Both the position numbers and the translations under genes were made by a program. This document shows, piece after piece, positions 9,101-58,495 of a stretch of DNA of 64,000 nucleotides; within the stretch, counting starts at the first letter, position 1; every line of letters begins with the position of its first letter. The stretch is from positions 600,492-664,491 of the forward strand of contig NC_036459.1 in assembly GCF_002775205.1 (NCBI RefSeq). Reading direction: 5' to 3'. This DNA is from Xiphophorus maculatus. Taxonomy: Eukaryota > Chordata > Actinopteri > Cyprinodontiformes > Poeciliidae. A model generated the notes under the pieces. The model searched no databases. It had not been told where the DNA came from and worked only from the letters and a program-made list of their open reading frames with translations.

Positions 9101-12100
9101 AACAGAAAATAAAGAAGTGACAAGGTTTTCCACATTTTATTGAAATCTAACCAAAGTTCCCAGTGGGATCATTTTGCAAATCCTTTAGGCTTTGGTCTAA
9201 AATCACAGTTTGAGTAAACATACTGTAGTTACTGTCAACAGGCTTGGACAAAAGGCTCAGTGTTTCCACTTGGTGCCACAGGGTGGATGCGTAATGCGTG
9301 CAGTAACGTGCAGACGGCTCTCCATGTGCAGCTGAAACATTCCAGGTGAAACTCAGGCTTCAAATTTTCCGTTTTGCAACGGCAATAGCTAAGAAAACCT
9401 GGAATAGTTCTTGTTTTTTCATGTCTATCGATGCTTTTTAATGCACAAGAGACATTTTAATACATTAGAAATGTTAATAGAAGAACATGTGGGGCTGAAA
9501 CGATTAATCGGATTAATTATGATTAACCTATTATTGAAATAATCATCAATTTAGCAATTAATTAACCATTAAGTAGAGTGTACAGACTCAAAGAAACACC
9601 ATTTACAGAAATAAAAATTTCTTCAAGTAAGAGTAGAAATACTTCTACATAACAAAAGCATAATCAAGTAAAAGCAGAGATACTCCTAAAGGTAATTTTT
9701 TCCAAAGCCTTTCGGACCGTAATACGTACGTAGAGTTTGGTGTGAGCGTACCTCCATGCCGAGCCGGATGTCCTCCAGGACGCCGTCCACCACGTGAATG
9801 CCCACGTCCTCCTGGTACGCCACCAGGCCGGCCAGCAGGTTGGCCACGCAGTGGATGCTGTTGTACTTGATGTTCCAGATGTTGATCATGCAGCAGATCA
9901 GGTAGCCCTTCGCCTCGGGCTCCTGCCACGGCAGCTTGCGCATCTGCCGCAGCACCTTCTCCGTGGTGACCTTGGACAGGTCCTTGTATAGCAGCTTCCT
10001 GATGTACTCCTGCAGCGGCGGCCGCTTCTTCTTCACGGCCTTCTCGATGGGCGGCGGGTTGCAGTAGTAGTAGGCGTTCTCCACCATGGTGACGTAGCGC
10101 GCGTCCAGGTGCTGCGCCTGCTTTTTACGCATCATTTGTTCCTGCAGAGCAGAGAAAATCTGAGCTGAATATCTGCTGAAATTATTTATTTTAAAAAAAC
10201 ACTTACTGTTATTTTTATGTTTAACATTTTAAAGAATTTTCGAATTTTGCTGGACGATAAATTGTCCCAGACGTTAACACGATAAACGATAATGTTGTTG
10301 TTTTGAGACCGTTTTCAAGTAATAAAATGATAATAATTACATAAAAATGCAAGAACAAATTCTCAAAGACCAACTAACTTTAATTTCTAACAGTTAACAC
10401 TGGAACTGGAAGACATTTTAAATATCCAAAATAAACAAAACAAATAAAATGAATTATTAAATCTCCATAAACAAAATTGGTCTCCAAAAAATGGCTACCT
10501 AGACTTTAATATCTTATTTTAAAAATAAGCTTTATTGGTTATTTATATGCATTTATTGCATTGCTAATATTTTGTAAAAAGGCAAAAGTGGTTAAATAAA
10601 AAATATGCAGAATCAGATAATTTTTTAAAAATCTGATTAATCGTCAGAATTGATTACTAAAATAATTGCTAGTTGAAGCCCTAATTGAATTACCAGGAAT
10701 GCCATTAAATTAGTCAGTGTGTGAGAATATGAAGACATTTTTAAATTATTAAATTTCAACCTTATTCCAAGCATTGTTTTATAAAAGAGAGAGAACGTCT
10801 TTAGAAACTTTTCCAAACATTAAAAAACAAACGTTAGCTGTGTTTCCATCGACCATATAACTGAACAATTTGACATTTCAGAAAAAACATTGCTTAATGG
10901 GAAAACACCACTTTTGAAAAAAAACAACCTTTTTGGATAAAACGTCCTGGCGCTAGGATGAGGTGGCTTTTTTTGAGTCAAAACTGGTTTATTTCACAAA
11001 AATGCAATAAAAAACACTTTTTCTGCATCACATGATCAACAACAGGATGTTACTACTGGCAGAAATGACGAAGAAAACAGGAAGTAGTCAGGATGATACA
11101 GCGTGTGCTTAATTGCTTATCGCATGAAAAAACTTGTTCACATGTGATTTTAGTTGTTTATGTGATAGAAACACCGCAAATTGTTTTTTGTGCAATACTG
11201 AAAGTTTTGTGCACATTTGCGACAGACTCAAGATTGAATCTGTCTTCTGGTTAGCAGCAGCTGGTTTTGTGCTAATAAAGACAGAAACGTTGGGGCCGCA
11301 GGGAGCGGACTGACCAGCAGGACGCTGGTCCGCAGGTGAGAGTCGGGCGAGCGGAACAGGAAGCGGCCGCAGGTCTCCAGCAGCGTGCAGGCCATCTCGA
11401 TGTGGTGGTGGGTGAAATCAGACAGCAGCATCTGTTGGGGCGCAGCAAAACAGACTTCTTAATCAAACATTTGAGGAAACCAGAGGACGGTTCGGAGGTC
11501 CAGACTCACCTTCAGGCAGTGAAGCGTGTCGGTCTTTGAGAACATCTTGAACTTGGAAAGTTCTCCGATGAATCGCACCGTTTTGTTTTTGGTCTCGATG
11601 TTGATCTGGTCCTTCTTACGGATCTAAAAATGGGACAAACATTTACTAAAGCAAATATTTTCAAGTCTTGTTTGATGTTTCTTTGGGTTTTTTATATTTA
11701 AATAAATTGCAGGGTTTCTACACAGTAAAACTTAAGAGCCTTTCAAGCATTTCAGGGAAGTTTTCAAACTTTCCCAGAACTACACTTCAGATTAGGGGAG
11801 ACACGATTAATCAGATTAATCGATTATTTATATTAATGCTTTTAATGCACAAGAGTTTTGTACATTTGGAAATATTAATGCAAGAAATAAGGAAATATGT
11901 AGCGCTGTAACGATTAATCAGATTAATCAATTATTTTTCTGGATTTCAGCAAAATAATTTTAGAAATTCTATTGGACCTAAAACAAGTTTAGTCTGATTT
12001 TTAAAAAACCCATTTGGTTTAAATTGCAAATAGCATTTTCCTACTTCAGGCTTTTAATCAAAAGTTAGATTGCACTTTATTATCAAACTGTGCAGTGTGA

Positions 12101-15100: not shown

Positions 15101-18100
15101 AAACAGCTGATGCCAGGGCTACATCCAACCAAATTATCCAGAGAAGGACAGTTTTATGCAAAATTCGCATTTTTATACTTCCATTAGGGTCTCACCTGCC
15201 TCTAAAAACAGACCAAGTGCTTAACAAAAACCATGACAAAAAACAATTAAAATAAACTGCATTTTTTTGGCCAATGAGTTATTGCTTTTTGGTGTCTGGA
15301 AAATGAGCCGTTTCAGAAACTTCCTGATTGTTAAGTCACATTCCACGGACTCTGCCTCGTTACCTAGCAACCCCAGCAGAATTCCACCCCGTTACCTAGC
15401 AACCCCGGCAGAATTCCACCCCGTTACCTAGCAACCCCAGCCTGAGCTACATAGATGTATCCTCCTATGAAGGTCACCTTTAAAAAAAGAGTCTGTTTCA
15501 TTTTATTAAATTTCATATAATGGAATATGAAGAAAAAATAGAATTTGGCTCAAACGCATATTGTTTAATTTTTGTGGTGTTTTTTACAAGTAGCTAAAGT
15601 GATTATTACAGTAAATAATCAATTTTGAGAATCAGTATAGTATCAGTATAGTAACTGGATGACTTTTTTGGCGAAGTAATCAGTAATTAGTAACTAATTA
15701 CTATTTCCCAGTAACTTGAACAGAGGGTTGCCCCCTGCTGAGCGCCCCCTGCTGGGCGCTGGCTCACCTTCCTGCACCGTCTTGTCCTGCGGCAGCTCTG
15801 GCATGTTTTCGTCCAGCAGGTCAGCCAGCGTCTGCGTGTTGGCCAGCAGCTTCTGGTAAGACGTGGCGAACTCCTCGTACTGCTTGTGGCGATCTTCGCT
15901 CAGCTCCCCTTTGGAGTGCAAGATCCGCCTGAAACCAACAACAGAAAAACTCAGCTCGGGTCAAAGTGCTTAAAAATCCATTTTACAGGAAAATTTATTT
16001 ACATTTTGTTTTCTGTTAACTTTCTTTGAGTTGAGGAGCTCATTTATAATTCTGATGGCATTTAAATAAAAAGTCATCTCATGGCTGAAAATGAGAGAAA
16101 ACGCAACTAAAGTCCAAAGGGGAACTGATTAAAACAAGTCGGACGGATTGGCAGAAAAACATAAAGCAACGTGAACTATTAATCAATTTTATTGATTAAC
16201 TGATTTTTTGGTTTTACAAGAATAAAGTCTCAGATCAGAGAAACTCATCCAGGCTTCAGTTTCTATTTAGTGGCTTTGACTCCTGCAGCAGCGTCTTCAC
16301 AGGTCTGACTGACAACCCAACGGTCCAGAACGCTGCTGCTGGAGTTCTGACTAGAACCAGGAGGATAGAGACACCACCCAGCTCTACGTCACCTGGCTCT
16401 ACGTCACCCAGCTCTACAGTCCTTCACTGAGAAAAGACACTTTAACTCCTGCTGGTAGTTTATAAATCACTGATAGGATAAAAGATCTGCTGCTGCTGGA
16501 TCAACCTTCCAGACCTCTCAGGTTCTGGTTCTGGTCTGAACCAAACATGGAGAAGCAGCATTCAGCTTCTATGTTCCACAAATCTGGAACAAACTTCCAG
16601 AAAACTGCAAAACAGCCGAAACACTGAGTTCCTTTTAAATCTAGACTAAAACCCACCAGTTTAGTTGCTTTGGAACCGTAATAAATTGAACACATTTCAT
16701 CTTTTTTTATGATGAAATGTCCTTTGAACTGCTGTGTTGCTGAAATGTGCTATTCAAATAAATATTCAATAGATTGATTTGTTGATTGATTAATCTGACC
16801 GGTTCTGCCTCTCGATGTTCTGCAGCTCCCGGTGGTCCTTCTTCAGGTGTTTGGTCAGCGAGGTGAAGTATTCCCTCAGCAGGTTCTGGAACGGCTGCTG
16901 CTTCTCGGTGCTGATGATCTCGCTCGGCGGGAACGCCAAGCCGAACTTCTCCGCCGCCAGCTTCACCCTGCGCGGCACCAGACCGGCGATGTCGTCGCCG
17001 CAGTGCTTGCAGAAGCTGATCACCACCGACACGTGAGTGTGCGTCTCGCGGTCCGTCCCGATGATGTTCTTCAGCTGCTCGTAGATCAGCGACAGCCCCT
17101 CCTTGTCGGTGAACAGGCCGACGATGGTGAGCTCGGCGATGAAGCGCAGGTCGGTGCGGAGCTTGCTCACATTGGGCGCCTTGTCCTCCTTCCTGGCCTC
17201 AAAGTGCTTCTTCCAGGCCTGTAGCAGCAGTGGCGCGAACTCAGCATAGCGCTGGTGGAACAGGGAGCACAGGTGCACGGCGCAGCCCACGTCGGAGATC
17301 TTCAGCTTGGCCTCCACGAGCGAGCTCACCGCCTCACCGATGTACTTGCTGAGGTTGAGCGAGGCGAAGTCGTTGGAGAGCGTGTCGCGCTGCTGCTCCG
17401 TCAGCGTGCGCAGCTTCTTGACGAAGGCTGTGTTCTTCTTCAGGCTGGAGTCCAGGCGGCTGAAGAAGGCCTCCTCGGGTCGGGCCTCCTGGGCGTTCTG
17501 GTTCCGGCTGCGGAGCTCCTTCCGGCCCTGATGCCGTTCCCAGGCCTCCTGGTGCAGCTGGTGGCCCTCCTCCTTTTCCCTGGAGACGAGAGACAACGGT
17601 GGACCAGGGTTAGAATAGTTCTGGGTTTTCATTTCACTGAAAAAACACAAAATCTTAACAAGTATTTATGGTCTAGTCCAGGGGTGGGCAACTCCAGACC
17701 TCGAGGGCCGGTGTCCTGCAACTTTTAGATGTTTCTCTACTTCAACACACCTGAGTCAAATAATGAGGTCATTAGCAGGACTCTGGAGAACCTGACTGCA
17801 CTTAGGAGGTGATTCAGCTGTTGGATTCAAGTGTGTTGGATCAGGGAGACGTCTAAGAGTTACAGGACACCGGCCCTCCAGGACCAGGATTGCCCACCCC
17901 TGGTCTAGTTTCTAGTGCAAATATCTTATTACACTGAAAATACAACAAAACTAATTCACAAGTAACTTTTCAGCAATATAAAGGAGCTTGTTTTATAAAA
18001 TTAGCAGCTGCTATTTGCGTTATGTTTGGTTCCTAAACAGGAAAAATAAAAGTCAGAATCTCTGAATGAAATCCTCTGAATGAACTGGATTAATCCAAAC

Positions 18101-20497: not shown

Positions 20498-20854
20498 TAA
20501 ACACTGAAGAGGAAATTATAGCATAATTTCAGCAGTTTATTGCAGAAAATTGGAATTTCTCATTACAACCCGATTTATTACAACTCACTTTAATCCATAT
20601 TAAAACAACAAAACATAAACAAAAAGACAAAGAATAAAAAAAGAAATCTACTGCAGAATGTAATTAAGCTACAAACAGAAAATAATAAGCCAGACTAAAT
20701 TAATAAAATAAAGAAATCGGTAAAAAATACTGAACGACAATTAAAGCATGATTATGTTTTGCTGTAAAAATAAAACTGAAATGAATCCATTCAAGGAAAA
20801 AAAACTGGATCGCTGAAATGTCTGAGGTTAAATTCAGCCAGGAAAAAAGTGAGT
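20498..20854. repeat. 357-bp direct repeat, left copy
   Basis: Matches 27793-28149 at all but one position as far as I can compare by eye (A at 20831, C in the right copy). It starts TAAACACTG and ends AAGTGAGT. It lacks TG...CA ends, is not followed by a primer-binding site, and holds no open frame, so it is unlikely to be an LTR. The right copy begins at the very base after the 3' LTR ends, which marks this as host DNA duplicated at the insertion. Confidence 0.85.
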
Positions 20855-20993: not shown

Positions 20994-21231
20994 CTTTCCA
21001 GCTAGCCATTCAAAGGGGCCGTTGTGACTCAGTATTGAATATACATATTTATTGTTGTGGCATTTTATTTTTTTATTCTCTTTTAAATGTCTATAAGATG
21101 TGCTGAGTAGTGTGTTGAATTTATTTGCTGCAAAGAACACTATAGTGAACTTCCTGAAACACAGGCACAAGATCTGTTGTGCCCATAATTCTACTTAAGA
21201 GTAAAATATAATAAAGAAAGAAAGGGCAAAT

Positions 21232-22884
21232 ATGTGGCATCATCACTCAGTTGAGCCCCTGAGTCCAGGATCTCTCGCAGAGTCCCAGCAAAATAACCTC
21301 AGTGCCATTCCAGGTCACACACAACCGCAGCCATGGCCATGTGAAGGGCAGCTTACTCCTCCTCCTCCTCATTTGTCCTTCTATAGTGACCAGTACCCTG
21401 TCCCTCCGCAGCCGTCTCTCCTTCCTCTTCCTCCTCCTACTGCTCCAGCTGCACCAGCCCACGTTGGTCATCAAAGCTATTCTAGTGCATTCCAAAATGC
21501 ACCTCAGTTACTACAGCAGCCCAGCACACAACCTCCAGGGGTTAACCAGACCGGGCAGCTTGTGGGACATAGCACCCACACCTACCCAGACCACCTACAT
21601 TCCACCCCTCACTCCCAGCCCAGACCCACACTCCAGCCCTCTCAATCTGTTGCACCTATTTATCAGGGTTGCACTCAGGGGGAAGCACGAACACAAAATA
21701 TACCCCAGTTTGCCTCATATGGAGCCCCCAACCACGCTGGGCACGAGCAGGCCAGTGTACCACAGCACATGCAGCCGCATGCATTGGGGTTTAACACATA
21801 TGACCGCTCAGGAGCTGCCCAATACATTCCTCGACCCCCACCTGCTGCCATGGCCTCGTATGCATACCATCCTGACCCTCAGTTAGATGACGGTGGGAGG
21901 ACTACCATCAGTCCACGCCTCCCCCAAGCAATATATGGTGGTTTCCTGCAGACTCACCAAGTAAAGAACGTGCAAGTCTTTACTGGTAACGCAGACAGTA
22001 AGATGCTCGTGGAAGACTGGATCCGTGATATGCAATACCTGCTGGATGCCATTGACCTCCCTGTACATCTTCGCTTCTCCACAGTGGTTCGACACCTCAA
22101 TGGAGAGGCCAGAAAGCTGGTTCTCAACCTCCCACCCAATGACCAGACCCCCGAGAAGGCATTTAACGAACTGAGGGCAGAATACGGTGATACTCAAGGC
22201 TCGTTAGATCCTTTAGCCGACTTTTATGAGCGGAGCCAGAGGTCATGCGAGTCAGCCTGCTCGTATGCCATAGCGCTGGAGGCAATCTTGCGGGCTGTGG
22301 AAGAACACCAGAGGGGTGGTAGGCCCTTTCCAGATCGAGATAGTAAACTGACTCGCCAGTTTTTAAGAGGGCTGATAGACGAACAGGTATATGCACGAAT
22401 AGCTCCAATGAAGCCCATGTTACTGAGTTTCAGAGAACTGCAGTCAGAGTTACGAAATATGGCAAGAGAAACAAAGAAGTTCCAGCCACAAAATAAAATA
22501 AAGAAGACATTTACTCAGGTGCAGATGACCTCAGAAAGCTCAGCTGTGAGGTTGGAAGGAAAACAATGCACTTCTGAGCTCTCTGAACTGACTGAGATTG
22601 TCAGAAAATTAGCTCTTAACCAAGAAGAGCAAATGGCCAAGCTGTCCAAACTGGAATCAAGTATAAAATCCTCCAAGTTGCCCCCAAACACATCCCCCTC
22701 ATCAGCACATTCTACGAGCCACAGTTCAAGTGTTACATGTCATCGCTGTGGAAACCGAGGGCACATAGCTAGATTTTGCCGAGCAGTACTTCCTGATTCC
22801 ACCTCCACTGGGACTCGCCTTGCTCAGTGGTCAACCTCGGCAGAGGAAATCAGCATCCCCCCAGCTCAGGGTTTAAACGCTTAA
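21232..22884 (+). CDS. gag: Gag polyprotein of Ty3/gypsy element (550 aa)
   Basis: Structural protein of the retrotransposon particle. The first about 240 residues are Pro/Gln/His-rich and low in complexity. Residues about 245-415 form a helical capsid-like region (VFTG..., W at the first helix, 'F.ERSQ...ES') that recalls the Gag fold kept in vertebrate PNMA proteins. A CCHC zinc knuckle (C-x2-C-x4-H-x4-C) lies near residue 503. The start is the first ATG of the frame. The frame ends 58 bases inside the pol frame, and the last codons overlap a -1 frameshift site. The PNMA comparison is by eye. Confidence 0.85.
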   Translation: MWHHHSVEPLSPGSLAESQQNNLSAIPGHTQPQPWPCEGQLTPPPPHLSFYSDQYPVPPQPSLLPLPPPTAPAAPAHVGHQSYSSAFQNAPQLLQQPSTQPPGVNQTGQLVGHSTHTYPDHLHSTPHSQPRPTLQPSQSVAPIYQGCTQGEARTQNIPQFASYGAPNHAGHEQASVPQHMQPHALGFNTYDRSGAAQYIPRPPPAAMASYAYHPDPQLDDGGRTTISPRLPQAIYGGFLQTHQVKNVQVFTGNADSKMLVEDWIRDMQYLLDAIDLPVHLRFSTVVRHLNGEARKLVLNLPPNDQTPEKAFNELRAEYGDTQGSLDPLADFYERSQRSCESACSYAIALEAILRAVEEHQRGGRPFPDRDSKLTRQFLRGLIDEQVYARIAPMKPMLLSFRELQSELRNMARETKKFQPQNKIKKTFTQVQMTSESSAVRLEGKQCTSELSELTEIVRKLALNQEEQMAKLSKLESSIKSSKLPPNTSPSSAHSTSHSSSVTCHRCGNRGHIARFCRAVLPDSTSTGTRLAQWSTSAEEISIPPAQGLNA

Positions 22885-25800
22885 AGCCCATGGTAGCAGG
22901 GGCAACCATGGGCAAGCAGGAAGCCCCACACAGAGATGATAAAGGCAATGCTAATAGAGCAGAGGGAACTCCTCTGGTGGGCCCAAGAAATGAGGGAGAA
23001 GTGGAGATAAATGGCATTAAATGCAGGGCTCTGATTGACTCTGGATCTCAAATCACGAGCATCACCCATAGCTTCTGGCACAACCACCCAGACCTTCAAA
23101 AACAGAATCTACACCCATCCAAAATAACTATAGAAGGTGCTGCAGCTCAAAATGTGCCTTATTATGGTGTTTTGCAGATCAAACTTAAGGTCTTTGGAGA
23201 GGACTGTATGACTGTCCCCACATTTGTTGTCCCTGATTCTGAATATCGCTCCTCAGTGCCTCTGCTCATTGGAACCAATGTCATCCGTGCATCTAGAAGT
23301 CACCTACAAGCAGTTTACGGTGTCGAGTTCCTCCACAGGATAAAAGAGAGCCATCCAGAATGGCATTCTGCTGTGATGGAGGTTGAAAACACAGAAGAAG
23401 ATCAGATGCATGGCATGGTTGGCCCCGCTGTCTTCACTGGTCGGGCTATCTGTATCCCTAGTGGTAAAGAGGTGGATGTGAAATGTAGGATTAAGGCAGG
23501 CCCTCAGAAAAAAATCTATACAGCACTGATTGAAAGCCCTTCTCCACACCAGCTCCCCCAAGACCTACTAGTGGCTAAAGTTCTCACAGATGTAAAGAGG
23601 GGATATGCTCCAGTCAGAGTCATGAATGCGTCCCGGAAAAACATCACTATTAAGCCCAACACTCAGCTTGCCACAGCCTTCTTGGTGGACAAAGTGTTTG
23701 AATCTTCTGACACAGGAGGAGACAAACATCAAAGTGAAATGAAAGAAGAGCTGTGTCTGAGCCTGGGTCAAGTGGTGGCAAGTTTTGAGGTGGACCTGGG
23801 TGGAGCAGCAGTGGAAAATGAAGACCAGCGTGCTCTCCTCAGGAACCTAGTGGAGAAAAATGGGGATGTCTTCTCCCAGAATGCTATGGATTACGGTCAT
23901 ACAAAGACTGTGCAGCATGAGATTCCTCTGGTGGACTCAAAGCCATTTCGACTTCCATATCGTAAGATCCCCCCTTCTCAGTGGCAAGAGGTGAGGAACC
24001 TCCTGACAGAGATGGAAGCTGCAGAAGTTATCCGGCCAAGCAAAAGCCCATATGCATCACCAGTGGTGATTGTTACTAAGAAAGATGGGTCATTAAGGCT
24101 TTGTATTGACTACAGAAAACTGAGTTCCTGCAGCACACGTGATGCATTTCCGTTGCCACGAATTGAAGAAGCATTGGAGGCACTGGGGCAAGCTAAATAC
24201 TTCTCCACACTGGATCTTACGTCAGGCTACTGGCAAGTGGAAGTGGCAGAGCATGATAAACACAAAACTGCATTCAGCACGCCCATGGGGCTTTTTGAGG
24301 CCAACAGAATGCCATTCGGGCTCCAAAATGCCCCATCCACATTTCAGAGGCTCATGACATGCTGCTTTGGGGACCTGAATTTCACTCACCTGCTCATTTA
24401 TCTTGATGACCTCATCATATTTTCCAAAACATTTGAGGAGCATCTGGAACGCCTCCAGCTGGTTTTTGATCGACTGAAAGAACATGGCTTGAAGTTAAAA
24501 CCCTCAAAGTGTCAGCTGGTGAAGAAGGAGGTGCAGTATCTGGGCCACATTGTGTCTGCGGAGGGAATCAAGACAGATCCAGAGAAGATCAGCAAGGTTA
24601 AGAACTGGAAAACGCCCACTAATCGTAAAGAGGTCCTGCAGTTTTTGGGATTTGCAGGGTACTACAGACGCTATGTGAAAGGTTACTCCACGCTGGCTGC
24701 TCCCTTGTACCGTCTCACCTCTGGCGATCCCAGAAAGAAAAAGAGAAAGACACATAAACACACTGACTCTGACCGACCCTATCTGTGGACTGCTGAGTGC
24801 GAAGAGGCATTTCAGCGTTTAAAGGATAGACTGGTGACAGCACCCATACTAGGCTACCCAGACTACAACCTGCCTTTCGTGCTGCAGACTGATGCTTCGG
24901 GGGAGGGACTGGGTGCTGTGTTGGCTCAAGTTCAGAATGGGGTCGAGAGGGTCATGGCTTATGCCAGCAGAGGCTTAAGCCCACCTGAAACCAGATATCC
25001 GGCACACAAGCTGGAATTTCTGGCCCTAAAGTGGGCCGTCACAGACAAGTTCTATGACCATCTTTATGGACGTTGTTTCTCTGTCTTGACTGATAATAAC
25101 CCCCTCAAATATGTGATGACGACAGCCAAACTTGATGCCACAGGGCAGAGATGGGTGTCCCAGCTATCGTCCTTTGAGTTTGACATCCAGTACAGAAGGG
25201 GACAGAACAATGCAAATGCTGATGCTCTTTCACGCATGTCCAACCAAGAAGTCACACAGATCTTACAGTCATGCCCTCAGCATGTCAGGGTCTCTGAATC
25301 GAAGCCTCCAGGGCCCCAGTGTGTTCCAAAGCCCCAGCATACATTCAACAACGCTGCAGTTTCGAAGGTGTCAGATAGCTGTGTTTTCCCAACAGTGAAT
25401 CAGCTGTATTTGGACGTGGGAACAGATGCACTTCCAGCCATGACAATTCAACAAATCCGTGCAGAACAGAAAGATGATTCCATTATTGGCCAAGTTCTGT
25501 ATTTCAAAAATAATAACAAAAAACCACCTCGAAGCGTGAGGATCGGCCTGGGAAGACATGGGAGCCTTCTCATAAAAGAGTGGAGGAGGTTGGTGGTCAG
25601 AAATGGCATCCTATACAGATGCATCACAGATGGGCAAAGAGGACGCATTGAGCAACTCATCTTGCCAGAGAAGCTGCGGGTGGTGGCTAAAACTGCTCTG
25701 CATGATGATTCAGGTCATTTAGGCTTTGAGAGAACTCTACAGCTGATAAGAGAGCGATTCTACTGGCCAAATATGTCCCTGGAAGTCAAATCGTGGTGTG

Positions 25801-26993
25801 AGCAGTGTGAAAGATGTTGTCTTAGGAAGACCCCCACAAGCAGTATTGGAGCTCCTCTTGTCAGCATCCACAGCAATGCCCCCATGGAGCTTGTGTGTGT
25901 AGACTTTCTCTGCCTGGAAAAGTCAAAGGGGGGCATTGAAAATGTTCTTGTTGTAACAGACCACTTTTCTCGTTACGCTCAAGCCTACCCCACCAAAGAC
26001 CAAAAAGCACGCACTGTGGCCAAGGTTCTGTGGAAGAATTTCTTCTGCCGGTTCGGCTTTCCAGCAAAGCTCCATGCAGATCAAGGACGCAATTTTGAGA
26101 GTGCAATTGTAAAAGAACTATGCAAGATCACTGGCATCACTAAGACTCACACCACTCCATATCACCCACAGGGCAACGGGACCACTGAAAGGTTCAACCG
26201 GACCCTAATGAATATGCTGGGAACTCTGCCACCTCACCTAAAGCCCAGGTGGCATGAATATGTGGATGCCATGACCCATGCTTACAACTGCACAAAACAT
26301 GACTCAACTGGATACACTCCGTACTATTTAATGTTTGGGAGACATCCCAGACTTCCAGTGGATCTGGTGTTTGGGACCTCAACCTCTAATAGCCAAGCGG
26401 GTTACAGTGACTATGTGCAGACACTCCATGACTGCCTGCTGGAGGCTTATGCACAAGCTAATCACAGTTCTAGGATTGCCAAGGAACAACAAAAGAAGTA
26501 CTATGATCAAAAAGCAAAGGATCAAGTGTTCAGCCCAGGGGACCGGGTGCTGGTCAAAATATGTCATGTGGAAGGACGGCAGAAGCTTGGAGACAAGTGG
26601 GAGCCACGTCCATATGTGGTGGTGAAGAAACAGCCTAAAATACCAGTATACGTGGTACAACCGGAGGATGGTGGCCCAGAAAGAGTGGTTCACAGAAACC
26701 TTCTCACTCAGTGCATGTTTATCCCGGTAGAAGAGGTGGGCAAACCGACAGCTGAGGAGGAGGAGTCAGATTTAGATCTGAACGAGACAAGTTTAGAGGA
26801 AGACCTGCAACAGAATGCGGATGCAGTCAGCATGGAGGAAACTGGACCCTCTCTGCAGCGTGGAGAAACTAACCAAAAAGACAAACAAGCCAGCCAAGAG
26901 GAAGGGGATACAGCAGGAGAAAATGAACCCCATGGCACTCCAGAGTCACTGCAGAGCAGTGGGATTCCAAGAAAAAAACCCACCCAGGACTAG
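22827..26993 (+). CDS. pol: Pol polyprotein of Ty3/gypsy element
   Basis: Lies in the -1 frame relative to gag and has no ATG at its upstream end, so it should be made as Gag-Pol by frameshifting at 22872-22878. Domains in order: aspartic protease (active site DSG, about 23037), reverse transcriptase with YLDD, RNase H beginning 'TDASG', integrase with an HHCC zinc finger (H-x3-H and C-x2-C near 25700-25815) and a DDE core (D of 'VCVDF', D of 'HADQG', E of 'TERFN'), then a GPY/F-like tail. The frame is uninterrupted over about 1370 codons. It ends early at an A7 run (26972-26978), beyond which a basic tail typical of such proteins continues in the next frame to 27120. Confidence 0.9.
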   Translation: MVNLGRGNQHPPSSGFKRLKPMVAGATMGKQEAPHRDDKGNANRAEGTPLVGPRNEGEVEINGIKCRALIDSGSQITSITHSFWHNHPDLQKQNLHPSKITIEGAAAQNVPYYGVLQIKLKVFGEDCMTVPTFVVPDSEYRSSVPLLIGTNVIRASRSHLQAVYGVEFLHRIKESHPEWHSAVMEVENTEEDQMHGMVGPAVFTGRAICIPSGKEVDVKCRIKAGPQKKIYTALIESPSPHQLPQDLLVAKVLTDVKRGYAPVRVMNASRKNITIKPNTQLATAFLVDKVFESSDTGGDKHQSEMKEELCLSLGQVVASFEVDLGGAAVENEDQRALLRNLVEKNGDVFSQNAMDYGHTKTVQHEIPLVDSKPFRLPYRKIPPSQWQEVRNLLTEMEAAEVIRPSKSPYASPVVIVTKKDGSLRLCIDYRKLSSCSTRDAFPLPRIEEALEALGQAKYFSTLDLTSGYWQVEVAEHDKHKTAFSTPMGLFEANRMPFGLQNAPSTFQRLMTCCFGDLNFTHLLIYLDDLIIFSKTFEEHLERLQLVFDRLKEHGLKLKPSKCQLVKKEVQYLGHIVSAEGIKTDPEKISKVKNWKTPTNRKEVLQFLGFAGYYRRYVKGYSTLAAPLYRLTSGDPRKKKRKTHKHTDSDRPYLWTAECEEAFQRLKDRLVTAPILGYPDYNLPFVLQTDASGEGLGAVLAQVQNGVERVMAYASRGLSPPETRYPAHKLEFLALKWAVTDKFYDHLYGRCFSVLTDNNPLKYVMTTAKLDATGQRWVSQLSSFEFDIQYRRGQNNANADALSRMSNQEVTQILQSCPQHVRVSESKPPGPQCVPKPQHTFNNAAVSKVSDSCVFPTVNQLYLDVGTDALPAMTIQQIRAEQKDDSIIGQVLYFKNNNKKPPRSVRIGLGRHGSLLIKEWRRLVVRNGILYRCITDGQRGRIEQLILPEKLRVVAKTALHDDSGHLGFERTLQLIRERFYWPNMSLEVKSWCEQCERCCLRKTPTSSIGAPLVSIHSNAPMELVCVDFLCLEKSKGGIENVLVVTDHFSRYAQAYPTKDQKARTVAKVLWKNFFCRFGFPAKLHADQGRNFESAIVKELCKITGITKTHTTPYHPQGNGTTERFNRTLMNMLGTLPPHLKPRWHEYVDAMTHAYNCTKHDSTGYTPYYLMFGRHPRLPVDLVFGTSTSNSQAGYSDYVQTLHDCLLEAYAQANHSSRIAKEQQKKYYDQKAKDQVFSPGDRVLVKICHVEGRQKLGDKWEPRPYVVVKKQPKIPVYVVQPEDGGPERVVHRNLLTQCMFIPVEEVGKPTAEEEESDLDLNETSLEEDLQQNADAVSMEETGPSLQRGETNQKDKQASQEEGDTAGENEPHGTPESLQSSGIPRKKPTQD
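22872..22927 (+). promoter_or_regulatory. -1 ribosomal frameshift signal: slippery heptamer plus H-type pseudoknot
   Basis: T TTA AAC (22872-22878) is in the correct phase of the gag frame, two codons before its stop codon. After a 7-nt spacer comes a perfect 9-bp stem: 22886-22894 pairs with 22905-22913. The loop bases GGGGC (22899-22903) can pair with GCCCC (22923-22927). This gives a classical H-type pseudoknot with loops of 4 and 9 nt. All parts are read directly from the sequence; function is inferred from the standard architecture of -1 frameshift sites. Confidence 0.85.
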
Positions 26994-27204: not shown

Positions 27205-27792
27205 TGTTACGACTGTTAAGGGTTCTCTCAGTTAATTCTTTTTATGTTCTGTTTAGTTTTATGGCAGGAACGCCATCAAATAAAGAAGGGGTAGATGTAA
27301 AGCAGTGCATAAATGTTCCAAAAGAGGGTGCTGTTGTTTTCTGTAATTGCTGGCACTACCACAATTCCGACATGTTTGTCCTGCCGGGGACACCGTAGGC
27401 AGGGGATTTCTGCGCGCGAACTGCCGTATTCTTTACAGTGTGTTTACTGCCTGTAAGGTAAGCAGCAGCTCTGCTAGCTCGGTGTAACATATACAGTATA
27501 TTAATATACCGATCTATTTCTGTTTGTTCAGTTTGCCTGTTAAGTATAAATTACATTTTGTTTTGGTGATGTTTGATTATTTTGTAAAAAGAAAAACGAT
27601 TGAACGCTGACAGTGTGTTTACTGCCTGTAAGGTGAACAAAATAAACGCGCCAAAGTTTCCCCACAACGACGAGCCGCCTGTCTGATTCCTCTCCTGCAC
27701 GGAACACATCCCACCCTCACACTAACACAACGCAGAGTCCATCGGGTGTCTTCCAGCAGCTGCAGGGTTAAAGAGGGAAAGCCTGGGTTACA
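27205..27792 (+). repeat. 3' LTR of the gypsy element
   Basis: Starts TGTTACG and ends GGTTACA (TG...CA ends, imperfect inverted ends TGTTAC/TGTAAC). It contains a TATA-like stretch (about 27488-27505) and an AATAAA signal near 27642. The last base adjoins the 357-bp host repeat exactly. Inside, a 25-bp word occurs twice (27435-27459 and 27610-27634). A 20-bp tandem duplication (gagcaatacattttatt-type) lies just upstream; no clean polypurine tract abuts the LTR. Confidence 0.7.
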
Positions 27793-28149
27793 TAAACACT
27801 GAAGAGGAAATTATAGCATAATTTCAGCAGTTTATTGCAGAAAATTGGAATTTCTCATTACAACCCGATTTATTACAACTCACTTTAATCCATATTAAAA
27901 CAACAAAACATAAACAAAAAGACAAAGAATAAAAAAAGAAATCTACTGCAGAATGTAATTAAGCTACAAACAGAAAATAATAAGCCAGACTAAATTAATA
28001 AAATAAAGAAATCGGTAAAAAATACTGAACGACAATTAAAGCATGATTATGTTTTGCTGTAAAAATAAAACTGAAATGAATCCATTCAAGGAAAAAAAAC
28101 TGGATCGCTGAAATGTCTGAGGTTACATTCAGCCAGGAAAAAAGTGAGT
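27793..28149. repeat. 357-bp direct repeat, right copy
   Basis: Partner of 20498-20854, beginning at the base after the LTR end. It differs at one position (28126). Sequence to the right (ttatcagct...) differs from what follows the left copy, and sequence to the left of each copy differs too. Confidence 0.85.
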
Positions 28150-52028: not shown

Positions 52029-57736
<5,708 letters not shown>

Positions 57737-58106: not shown

Positions 58107-58495
58107 CCCATAATGCTGTGCGATGGTTAGTTAAAAATAAAAAAAATCAGCGGATAAAAACTAGACTAGTTTTTAAATATTAAAATCTGCAGGATGTTAC
58201 ATTTAATGAACACCAGGGGGCAGTGTGGTTACACCACTAAAAATGTTCTAATCTCTAAATGTGAAATTTTTTAATGGCCGCCAAAGTTGAAGAACCTGAA
58301 CTCTGAAATTTAAACTAAAATTATTTTGACTTAAATTTATAAAACAAACCATCACACAGCATTACATAATGCTGTGTGATGGTTTGTTTAAAAAAAAAAA
58401 AGTTATCTGCAAACCAGCGGTTAAAAACTTAGTTTATAAAATATGAAAAATCTCTGCAGGATGTGTTGTATTTATTGGCCACAAGGGGGCAGTGT
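58107..58495 (+). repeat. Duplicated segment with two CTCF-like motifs and a perfect hairpin
   Basis: The block 58107-58235 is repeated in diverged form at 58366-58495 ('cataatgctgtg.gatggtt', 'ctgcaggatgt', '..gggggcagtg'). Each copy ends in a CTCF-like core on the plus strand: CACCAGGGGGCAGTG (58211-58225) and CCACAAGGGGGCAGTG (58479-58494). The second copy is preceded by a perfect 23-bp inverted repeat with a 2-nt loop (58343-58365 / 58368-58390). Confidence 0.6.

Follow-up and report, generated by a model that had tools for sequence, protein, structure and literature searches.

A predicted -1 ribosomal frameshift cassette at the gag-pol junction of a Ty3/gypsy element in Xiphophorus maculatus and its recurrence in 35 families of the same genome

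The window analysed here, 64,000 nucleotides of contig NC_036459.1 of the fish Xiphophorus maculatus (positions 600,492 to 664,491), contains a truncated copy of a Ty3/gypsy (Metaviridae) retrotransposon whose gag and pol genes, both on the plus strand, lie in different frames. The gag open reading frame (ORF) extends from 21205 to 22884 (559 amino acids). Read from its first ATG it covers 21232-22884, with a PNMA-like capsid region at about 21979-22440 and a CCHC zinc knuckle at 22738-22779. The pol frame (22797-26993) is set one base back, overlaps gag by 88 nt, and encodes an aspartic protease (catalytic Asp codon at 23037-23039), reverse transcriptase (RT), RNase H and integrase. A gag with a CCHC knuckle followed by protease, RT, RNase H and integrase is the Ty3/gypsy domain order, and the assignment to gypsy made in an earlier sequence-only reading of this DNA thus stands. 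We consider it very probable that the junction represents a -1 programmed ribosomal frameshift cassette of a Ty3/gypsy element with a PNMA-type capsid. The same reading had proposed that this family shifts from gag to pol, an idea which gains support from the relatives of the element, from 35 families in the genome and from elements with fused gag and pol serving as controls.

The slippery heptamer T TTA AAC lies at 22872-22878 and conforms to the pattern X XXY YYZ in the zero-frame phase, inside the overlap of the two ORFs: read directly, its codons TTA (22873-22875) and AAC (22876-22878) are in phase with gag. After AAC there is a single codon, GCT, and then the gag stop TAA (22882-22884), which falls within a spacer of 7 nt (22879-22885). 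Beyond the spacer, an H-type pseudoknot is predicted. The arms of stem 1 occupy 22886-22894 and 22905-22913, and all 9 of its 9 pairs are Watson-Crick. Stem 2 has 5 bp, with one arm, GGGGC, inside the stem 1 loop (22899-22903) and the other, GCCCC, at 22923-22927, leaving pseudoknot loops of 4, 1 and 9 nt. A downstream structure is usually found 5-9 nt past the heptamer, and the predicted one, with its spacer of 7 nt and stems of 9 and 5 bp, is placed accordingly. The heptamer, its phase, the spacer and both stems had been described in the sequence-only reading, and direct inspection reproduces each of them exactly.

According to this interpretation, ribosomes on gag would read TTA AAC at a moment when the pseudoknot, 7 nt further on, resists being unwound. 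A minority would slip one base back on U UUA AAC and go on to synthesize protease, RT and integrase as Gag-Pol, and the majority would read one further codon and stop at TAA to give Gag, so that the enzymes would be made at a low ratio to the shell protein. Slippage at the window site, its efficiency and its role in setting this ratio are what we infer from the sequence. Read-through of the gag stop was rejected as an explanation, since it cannot join different frames.

The structure exceeds chance expectation in the window copy. Pseudoknots were scored by summing nearest-neighbour stacking energies over an H-type fold whose stem 1 starts 3-12 nt past the heptamer, and scores were compared with those of shuffled sequences (1000 shuffles for the window, 400 for each family described below). 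The window pseudoknot scored -25.6, a value reached by none of 1000 dinucleotide shuffles. Both strands of the window were scored at TTTAAAC, 33 sites in all; only the gag-pol site and one other reached -15 or better. RNA folding without pseudoknots gave a z-score of -3.3, with 1 of 200 shuffles equally good. A search of Rfam found no family at the gathering threshold across the whole window, and the 601 bases around the site gave only one sub-threshold match, to a small nucleolar RNA. The other high-scoring TTTAAAC, at 58392 on the minus strand, was set aside as a perfect palindrome. It belongs to a stretch at 58330-58400 (minus strand) in which a run of T and TTTAAAC precede a perfect hairpin palindrome; the stretch may be a small inverted-repeat element.

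Relatives of the element were sought in the 704 Mb genome from which the window comes. A second young copy, on contig C13, has the same junction, with a single difference over the 600 bases compared around the site, a change of G to C in the spacer at 22879. The contigs C5, C12 and C16 each carry an older relative, 72-74% identical to the window element over aligned DNA, and TTTAAAC is kept in 3/3. When the window's stem-1 pairs are imposed on these relatives without refitting, 9/9 can form in C5, 8/9 in C12 and 9/9 in C16. One pair, A-U in the window, is G-C in C12, a compensatory change, and G-U in both C5 and C16. Conservation and covariation of the stems in related elements had been suggested as a check on the sequence-only reading, and the check comes out in its favor, more clearly for stem 1 than for stem 2.

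We next consider how widespread this layout is. A protease query yielded 203 candidates and, among these, at least 147 matches. Junction DNA was obtained for all 147, although in one case the end of a contig cuts it short. The matches are not all separate elements, as L009 and L010 represent one place. Relative to the zinc knuckle, the protease lies in the -1 frame in 116 matches, in the gag frame in 22 and in the third frame in three (L016, L019 and L107, apparently damaged copies), and no zinc knuckle was found in the remaining six. Grouping at 80% identity across 200 nt or more sorts the 116 matches in the -1 frame into 35 families. Each family was represented by its first member with the motif, a choice that made a difference in a single family, the first member of which (L092) is without it. 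Some non-representative members likewise lack the motif at the gag stop, for example L027. Over the final 75 nt of gag, A-AAC is present in the gag phase in 35/35 representatives, and in the other two phases in 11/35 and 3/35. It could be argued that the frames differ merely because a single dead copy has decayed by mutation, with heptamer and stem coinciding by chance, and the window copy is indeed truncated at its 5' end. We find this scarcely credible: the same junction is present in the copy on another contig, the layout is common to 35 families, and the family census stands strongly against decay.

The heptamers of the 35 families are T TTA AAC in 13, G GGA AAC in eight, G GAA AAC in seven and G TTA AAC in four, with A TTA AAC, G GTA AAC and A TCA AAC in one family each. 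For mammalian ribosomes, U_UUA_AAC and G_GGA_AAC are reported to rank with the sites most prone to shifting, and the same source lists G_GA and G_UU(A) as known variants (PMC5009743). The non-classical G GAA AAC characterizes L025, L028, L079, L088, L112, L130 and L160, and five of these seven families form a single, incompletely supported group on the protease tree. A further observation concerns the gag stop, which directly follows the AAC of the slippery site in 22/35 families (for example L026, L052 and L063). For a plant virus, a stop 3 nt downstream is described as mattering for frameshifting (PMC5009743), and the abutting gag stop might likewise contribute to the mechanism here.

The census also bears on another way of expressing pol, in which ribosomes would terminate and reinitiate, or scan past upstream starts, to begin at an ATG in the pol frame, the heptamer and hairpin being incidental. 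The sequence-only reading had held that no usable pol-frame ATG exists upstream. This was wrong: ATGs are present at 22890, five bases past the gag stop, and at 22908, both in the pol frame and upstream of the protease, and re-initiation is therefore possible in the window copy, which counts against frameshifting there. However, the first of them is lost in 3/3 of the older relatives and the second in 1/3. Moreover, only 18/35 families have an ATG in the pol frame anywhere from the shift site to 15 residues before the catalytic Asp, whereas an in-phase A-AAC with a pseudoknot behind it is found in all 35 representatives. We therefore regard initiation at such ATGs as very improbable, and frameshifting as the better account of pol expression.

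The predicted pseudoknot is as widespread as the motif. Behind the in-phase N-NNA-AAC, an H-type pseudoknot is predicted in 35/35 representatives, with a spacer of 3-11 nt (median 6), a stem 1 of 5-12 bp and a stem 2 of 4-8 bp. Its score was never reached by shuffles in 24/35 families, and was reached by at most 1% of them in 31/35. When the scorer was slid further downstream, the real score was matched or beaten in only 1 of 735 windows. Furthermore, stem 1 appears to have been rebuilt from family to family. Among the 33 families in which this stem has 6 bp or more, the arms of one family combined with those of another form a mean of 2.8 of six pairs, and all six in 31 of 1056 swaps, compared with the six of six that a family's own arms form by construction. 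Overall, heptamer and structure are conserved with covariation, for which the within-family data are weak and stem 2 is weaker than stem 1.

Elements in which gag and pol are fused serve as natural controls. Among the 22 gag-frame matches, 21 have no gag stop, and these fused loci comprise six zinc-knuckle types, from each of which one locus was picked by eye. An in-phase A-AAC lies between knuckle and protease in 4/6 types, in one of them as G GAA AAC, a finding that tells against the motif as a signature of frameshifting. The motif alone thus does not discriminate; the pair of site and structure does. Behind the in-phase A-AAC of the fused types there is no pseudoknot, the score being 0 at each. 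The best score anywhere between knuckle and protease ranges from -5.8 to -12.5 in the fused types, compared with a median of -20.0 (-31.2 to -11.1) when the 35 families are scanned in the same way. On the protease tree, which is unrooted and built from a short fragment, the fused label requires two changes and is placed inside the frameshifting families. The fused types are therefore likely to have been derived by loss from a frameshifting ancestor. Outside the genome, a protease query of IMG/VR found no relative, and an RT query found one contig filed as viral (L165), whose gypsy RT is 56% identical to that of the window. The part of this contig that was retrieved stays open in one frame for at least 2053 codons; it contains a protease motif, a pattern search found no zinc knuckle in it, and the element looks fused.

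Several further results weigh against the cassette as we describe it. The scorer is a simple, uncalibrated stacking sum. The spacers of five families (3, 4, 4, 4 and 11 nt) lie outside the usual 5-9 nt, and in four families (L025, L079, L112 and L113) the pseudoknot score is reached by more than 1% of shuffles. One of these, L113, scores -11.1 and falls within the range of the fused types, so that the two ranges overlap at the edge. For the families with G GTA AAC and A TCA AAC, poor re-pairing in the P site is expected, and these copies may be damaged. Among 346 pair cells compared within families, 332 are unchanged, eight are changed yet paired, six are broken, and none is changed on both sides and paired; within-family covariation was accordingly set aside as evidence, as there is too little variation.

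The remaining points concern stem 2, and with it the possibility that frameshifting is real but stimulated by a simple hairpin, or by one in which stem 1 is extended at its base by GCUU/AAGC, with stem 2 unformed. The minimum free energy fold of the window copy, from a program that cannot draw pseudoknots, indeed extends stem 1 in this way and has no stem 2. Taken alone, stem 2 of the window copy is only mildly unusual, as 32 of 1000 sequences made by shuffling the downstream part match it, and a single copy is therefore insufficient to establish it. Only 10/35 families pass the 5% level for stem 2 when taken singly. In addition, stem-2 arms swapped between families still form 4/4 pairs in 622 of 1190 cases; they are largely interchangeable, and stem-2 covariation is thus weaker evidence than that of stem 1. 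On the other side, several families differ from one another in both arms of stem 2, as in GGGAC/GUCCC, GGGGC/GCCCC, GAGCC/GGCUC, GGCCC/GGGCC and GAGGG/CCCUC. Combined over the 35 families, the stem-2 value is 4e-13 if the families are independent, which related families are not fully. The GCUU/AAGC extension is also broken by the spacer change in the C13 copy. We therefore consider a hairpin stimulator unlikely, and a pseudoknot the better candidate.

The capsid connects these elements to the mammalian PNMA genes. Pfam was searched with ten relatives for which 1.5 kb of upstream DNA was available, eight from frameshifting families (L013, L018, L023, L024, L025, L026, L028 and L033) and two from one fused type (L019 and L020). 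All ten passed the PNMA cut-off, with E values from 7e-6 to 4e-46, and a profile built from nine of these capsids matched, at 1e-26, chains that the PDB lists as paraneoplastic antigen Ma2 (PNMA2). On its own, the window capsid scores 14.1 bits in Pfam, short of the 25 required (E 0.034). Compared with the profile of the nine relatives, it matches with 98% probability (E 7e-14), and a piece of the protease used as a control gave 0.3%. By profile comparison, then, the capsid of the window element is of PNMA type, and the mention of PNMA3 and PNMA5 in the sequence-only reading was apt. The gag ends available for 26 other family representatives, including all eight with G GGA AAC, gave no capsid match; families close to the PNMA-positive L026 gave none either, and these stretches therefore seem too short to reach the capsid. 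Sequence searches of the PDB gave no match with the window gag or with the L023 gag, and an AlphaFold capsid model made from one sequence was not used (mean predicted local distance difference test score, pLDDT, of 44). The strongest PNMA matches are L019 and L020, and the fused L020 has an RRM-like N-terminal domain, of the type carried by PNMA genes and the elements closest to them. A search of the whole window gag at E 0.001, the most permissive made of its N-terminal part, found no such domain. That L020, nearest to PNMA among the relatives tested, is without the frameshift signal weighs against a simple story of descent.

It is instructive to compare the window site with known systems. 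PNMA3 and PNMA5, mammalian genes derived from PNMA-type Ty3/gypsy elements, share the capsid family of the window element. G GGA AAC, the heptamer of eight of our families, is also that which we take to belong to PNMA3, whereas the window family uses T TTA AAC. Ma3 is reported to undergo -1 frameshifting at about 20%, with heptamer and H-type pseudoknot both classical, and Ma5 is said in the same source to appear similar; neither gene encodes a pol domain (PMC5009743). Another account assigns no known domain to the frame entered after the shift and calls the relevance of the frameshift unclear (PMC11011659). PEG10, which is related to sushi-ichi, resembles the window site in having a -1 shift with a pseudoknot between Gag-like and protease frames, described as using GGGAAAC and a 5-nt spacer (PMC2800197). 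Its domestication is presented as separate from that of PNMA (PMC11011659), and the window capsid matches PNMA. Among nidoviruses, whose ORF1a/1b shift sites include U_UUA_AAC in infectious bronchitis virus and G_UU(A) in equine arteritis virus (PMC5009743), the former is identical to the site of the window family. This likeness probably reflects convergent use of the same tRNA pair, and homology is not expected.

The structure of the window copy outside the coding region is unusual. Its 3' long terminal repeat (LTR), bounded by TG...CA, lies at 27296-27792 on the plus strand, and the matching 5' LTR and the primer-binding region are missing; the pair of LTRs, the primer-binding site and the short target duplication expected of a Ty3/gypsy element are accordingly not present in this copy. 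The element begins about 82 nt inside the point that matches the end of the left LTR of the C13 copy. The latter has identical LTRs of 499 nt and a target duplication of CTAT, and its left LTR is followed by what is presumably a tRNA-His-like primer-binding site. The window copy is flanked by a direct duplication of 357 bp, which is not an LTR. Its left copy (20498-20854, plus strand) abuts the truncated 5' end of the element and its right copy (27793-28149, plus strand) begins directly past the 3' LTR, with one mismatch between them and no third match found in the 704-Mb genome. A 300-nt repeat first taken for the LTRs was rejected, as it is this flanking duplication. From its sequence, the window copy looks like an aberrant one-ended insertion with an unusually long target duplication. 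Elsewhere in the genome, an LTR of the window family is split near its position 325 (C18:408391-408715 and 416636-416810), with L014, a member of another frameshifting family, in between, which is probably a nested insertion. The window also contains two ORFs with MIF4G domains on the minus strand (9686-10225 and 16790-17662), probably parts of related host genes, an ORF with a RING finger on the plus strand (57251-57733), and an 18-bp tandem repeat of nine copies with 94% matches (52841-53004).

The mechanism proposed here is a textbook one and of a known kind; its spread over 35 families is the new part. A survey of 2003 is reported to have found pol in the -1 frame in 28 of 51 animal LTR elements, many with classical heptamers and mostly from Drosophila (PMC5009743), whereas the present census concerns relatives within one genome and assesses the pseudoknot for each family. 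We found no earlier description of such a spread of cassettes in the literature searched, which covered few subscription journals. The recurrence in 35 families, together with the link to PNMA, lifts the finding above the routine.

We speculate, without regarding it as the probable outcome, that N-NNA-AAC with an H-type pseudoknot was the ancestral gag-pol switch of the lineage of Metaviridae with PNMA capsids, that it was kept despite the turnover of stem 1 and lost in two fused lineages, and that the frameshifts of PNMA3 and PNMA5 might have been inherited from it instead of arising afterwards. In the genome of X. maculatus, evolution has varied the heptamer, spacer and pseudoknot of this cassette over 35 natural families, and the six fused types offer a natural control. 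It thus becomes testable whether the frameshift of PNMA3 and PNMA5 is a relic of a retrotransposon switch between Gag and Gag-Pol.

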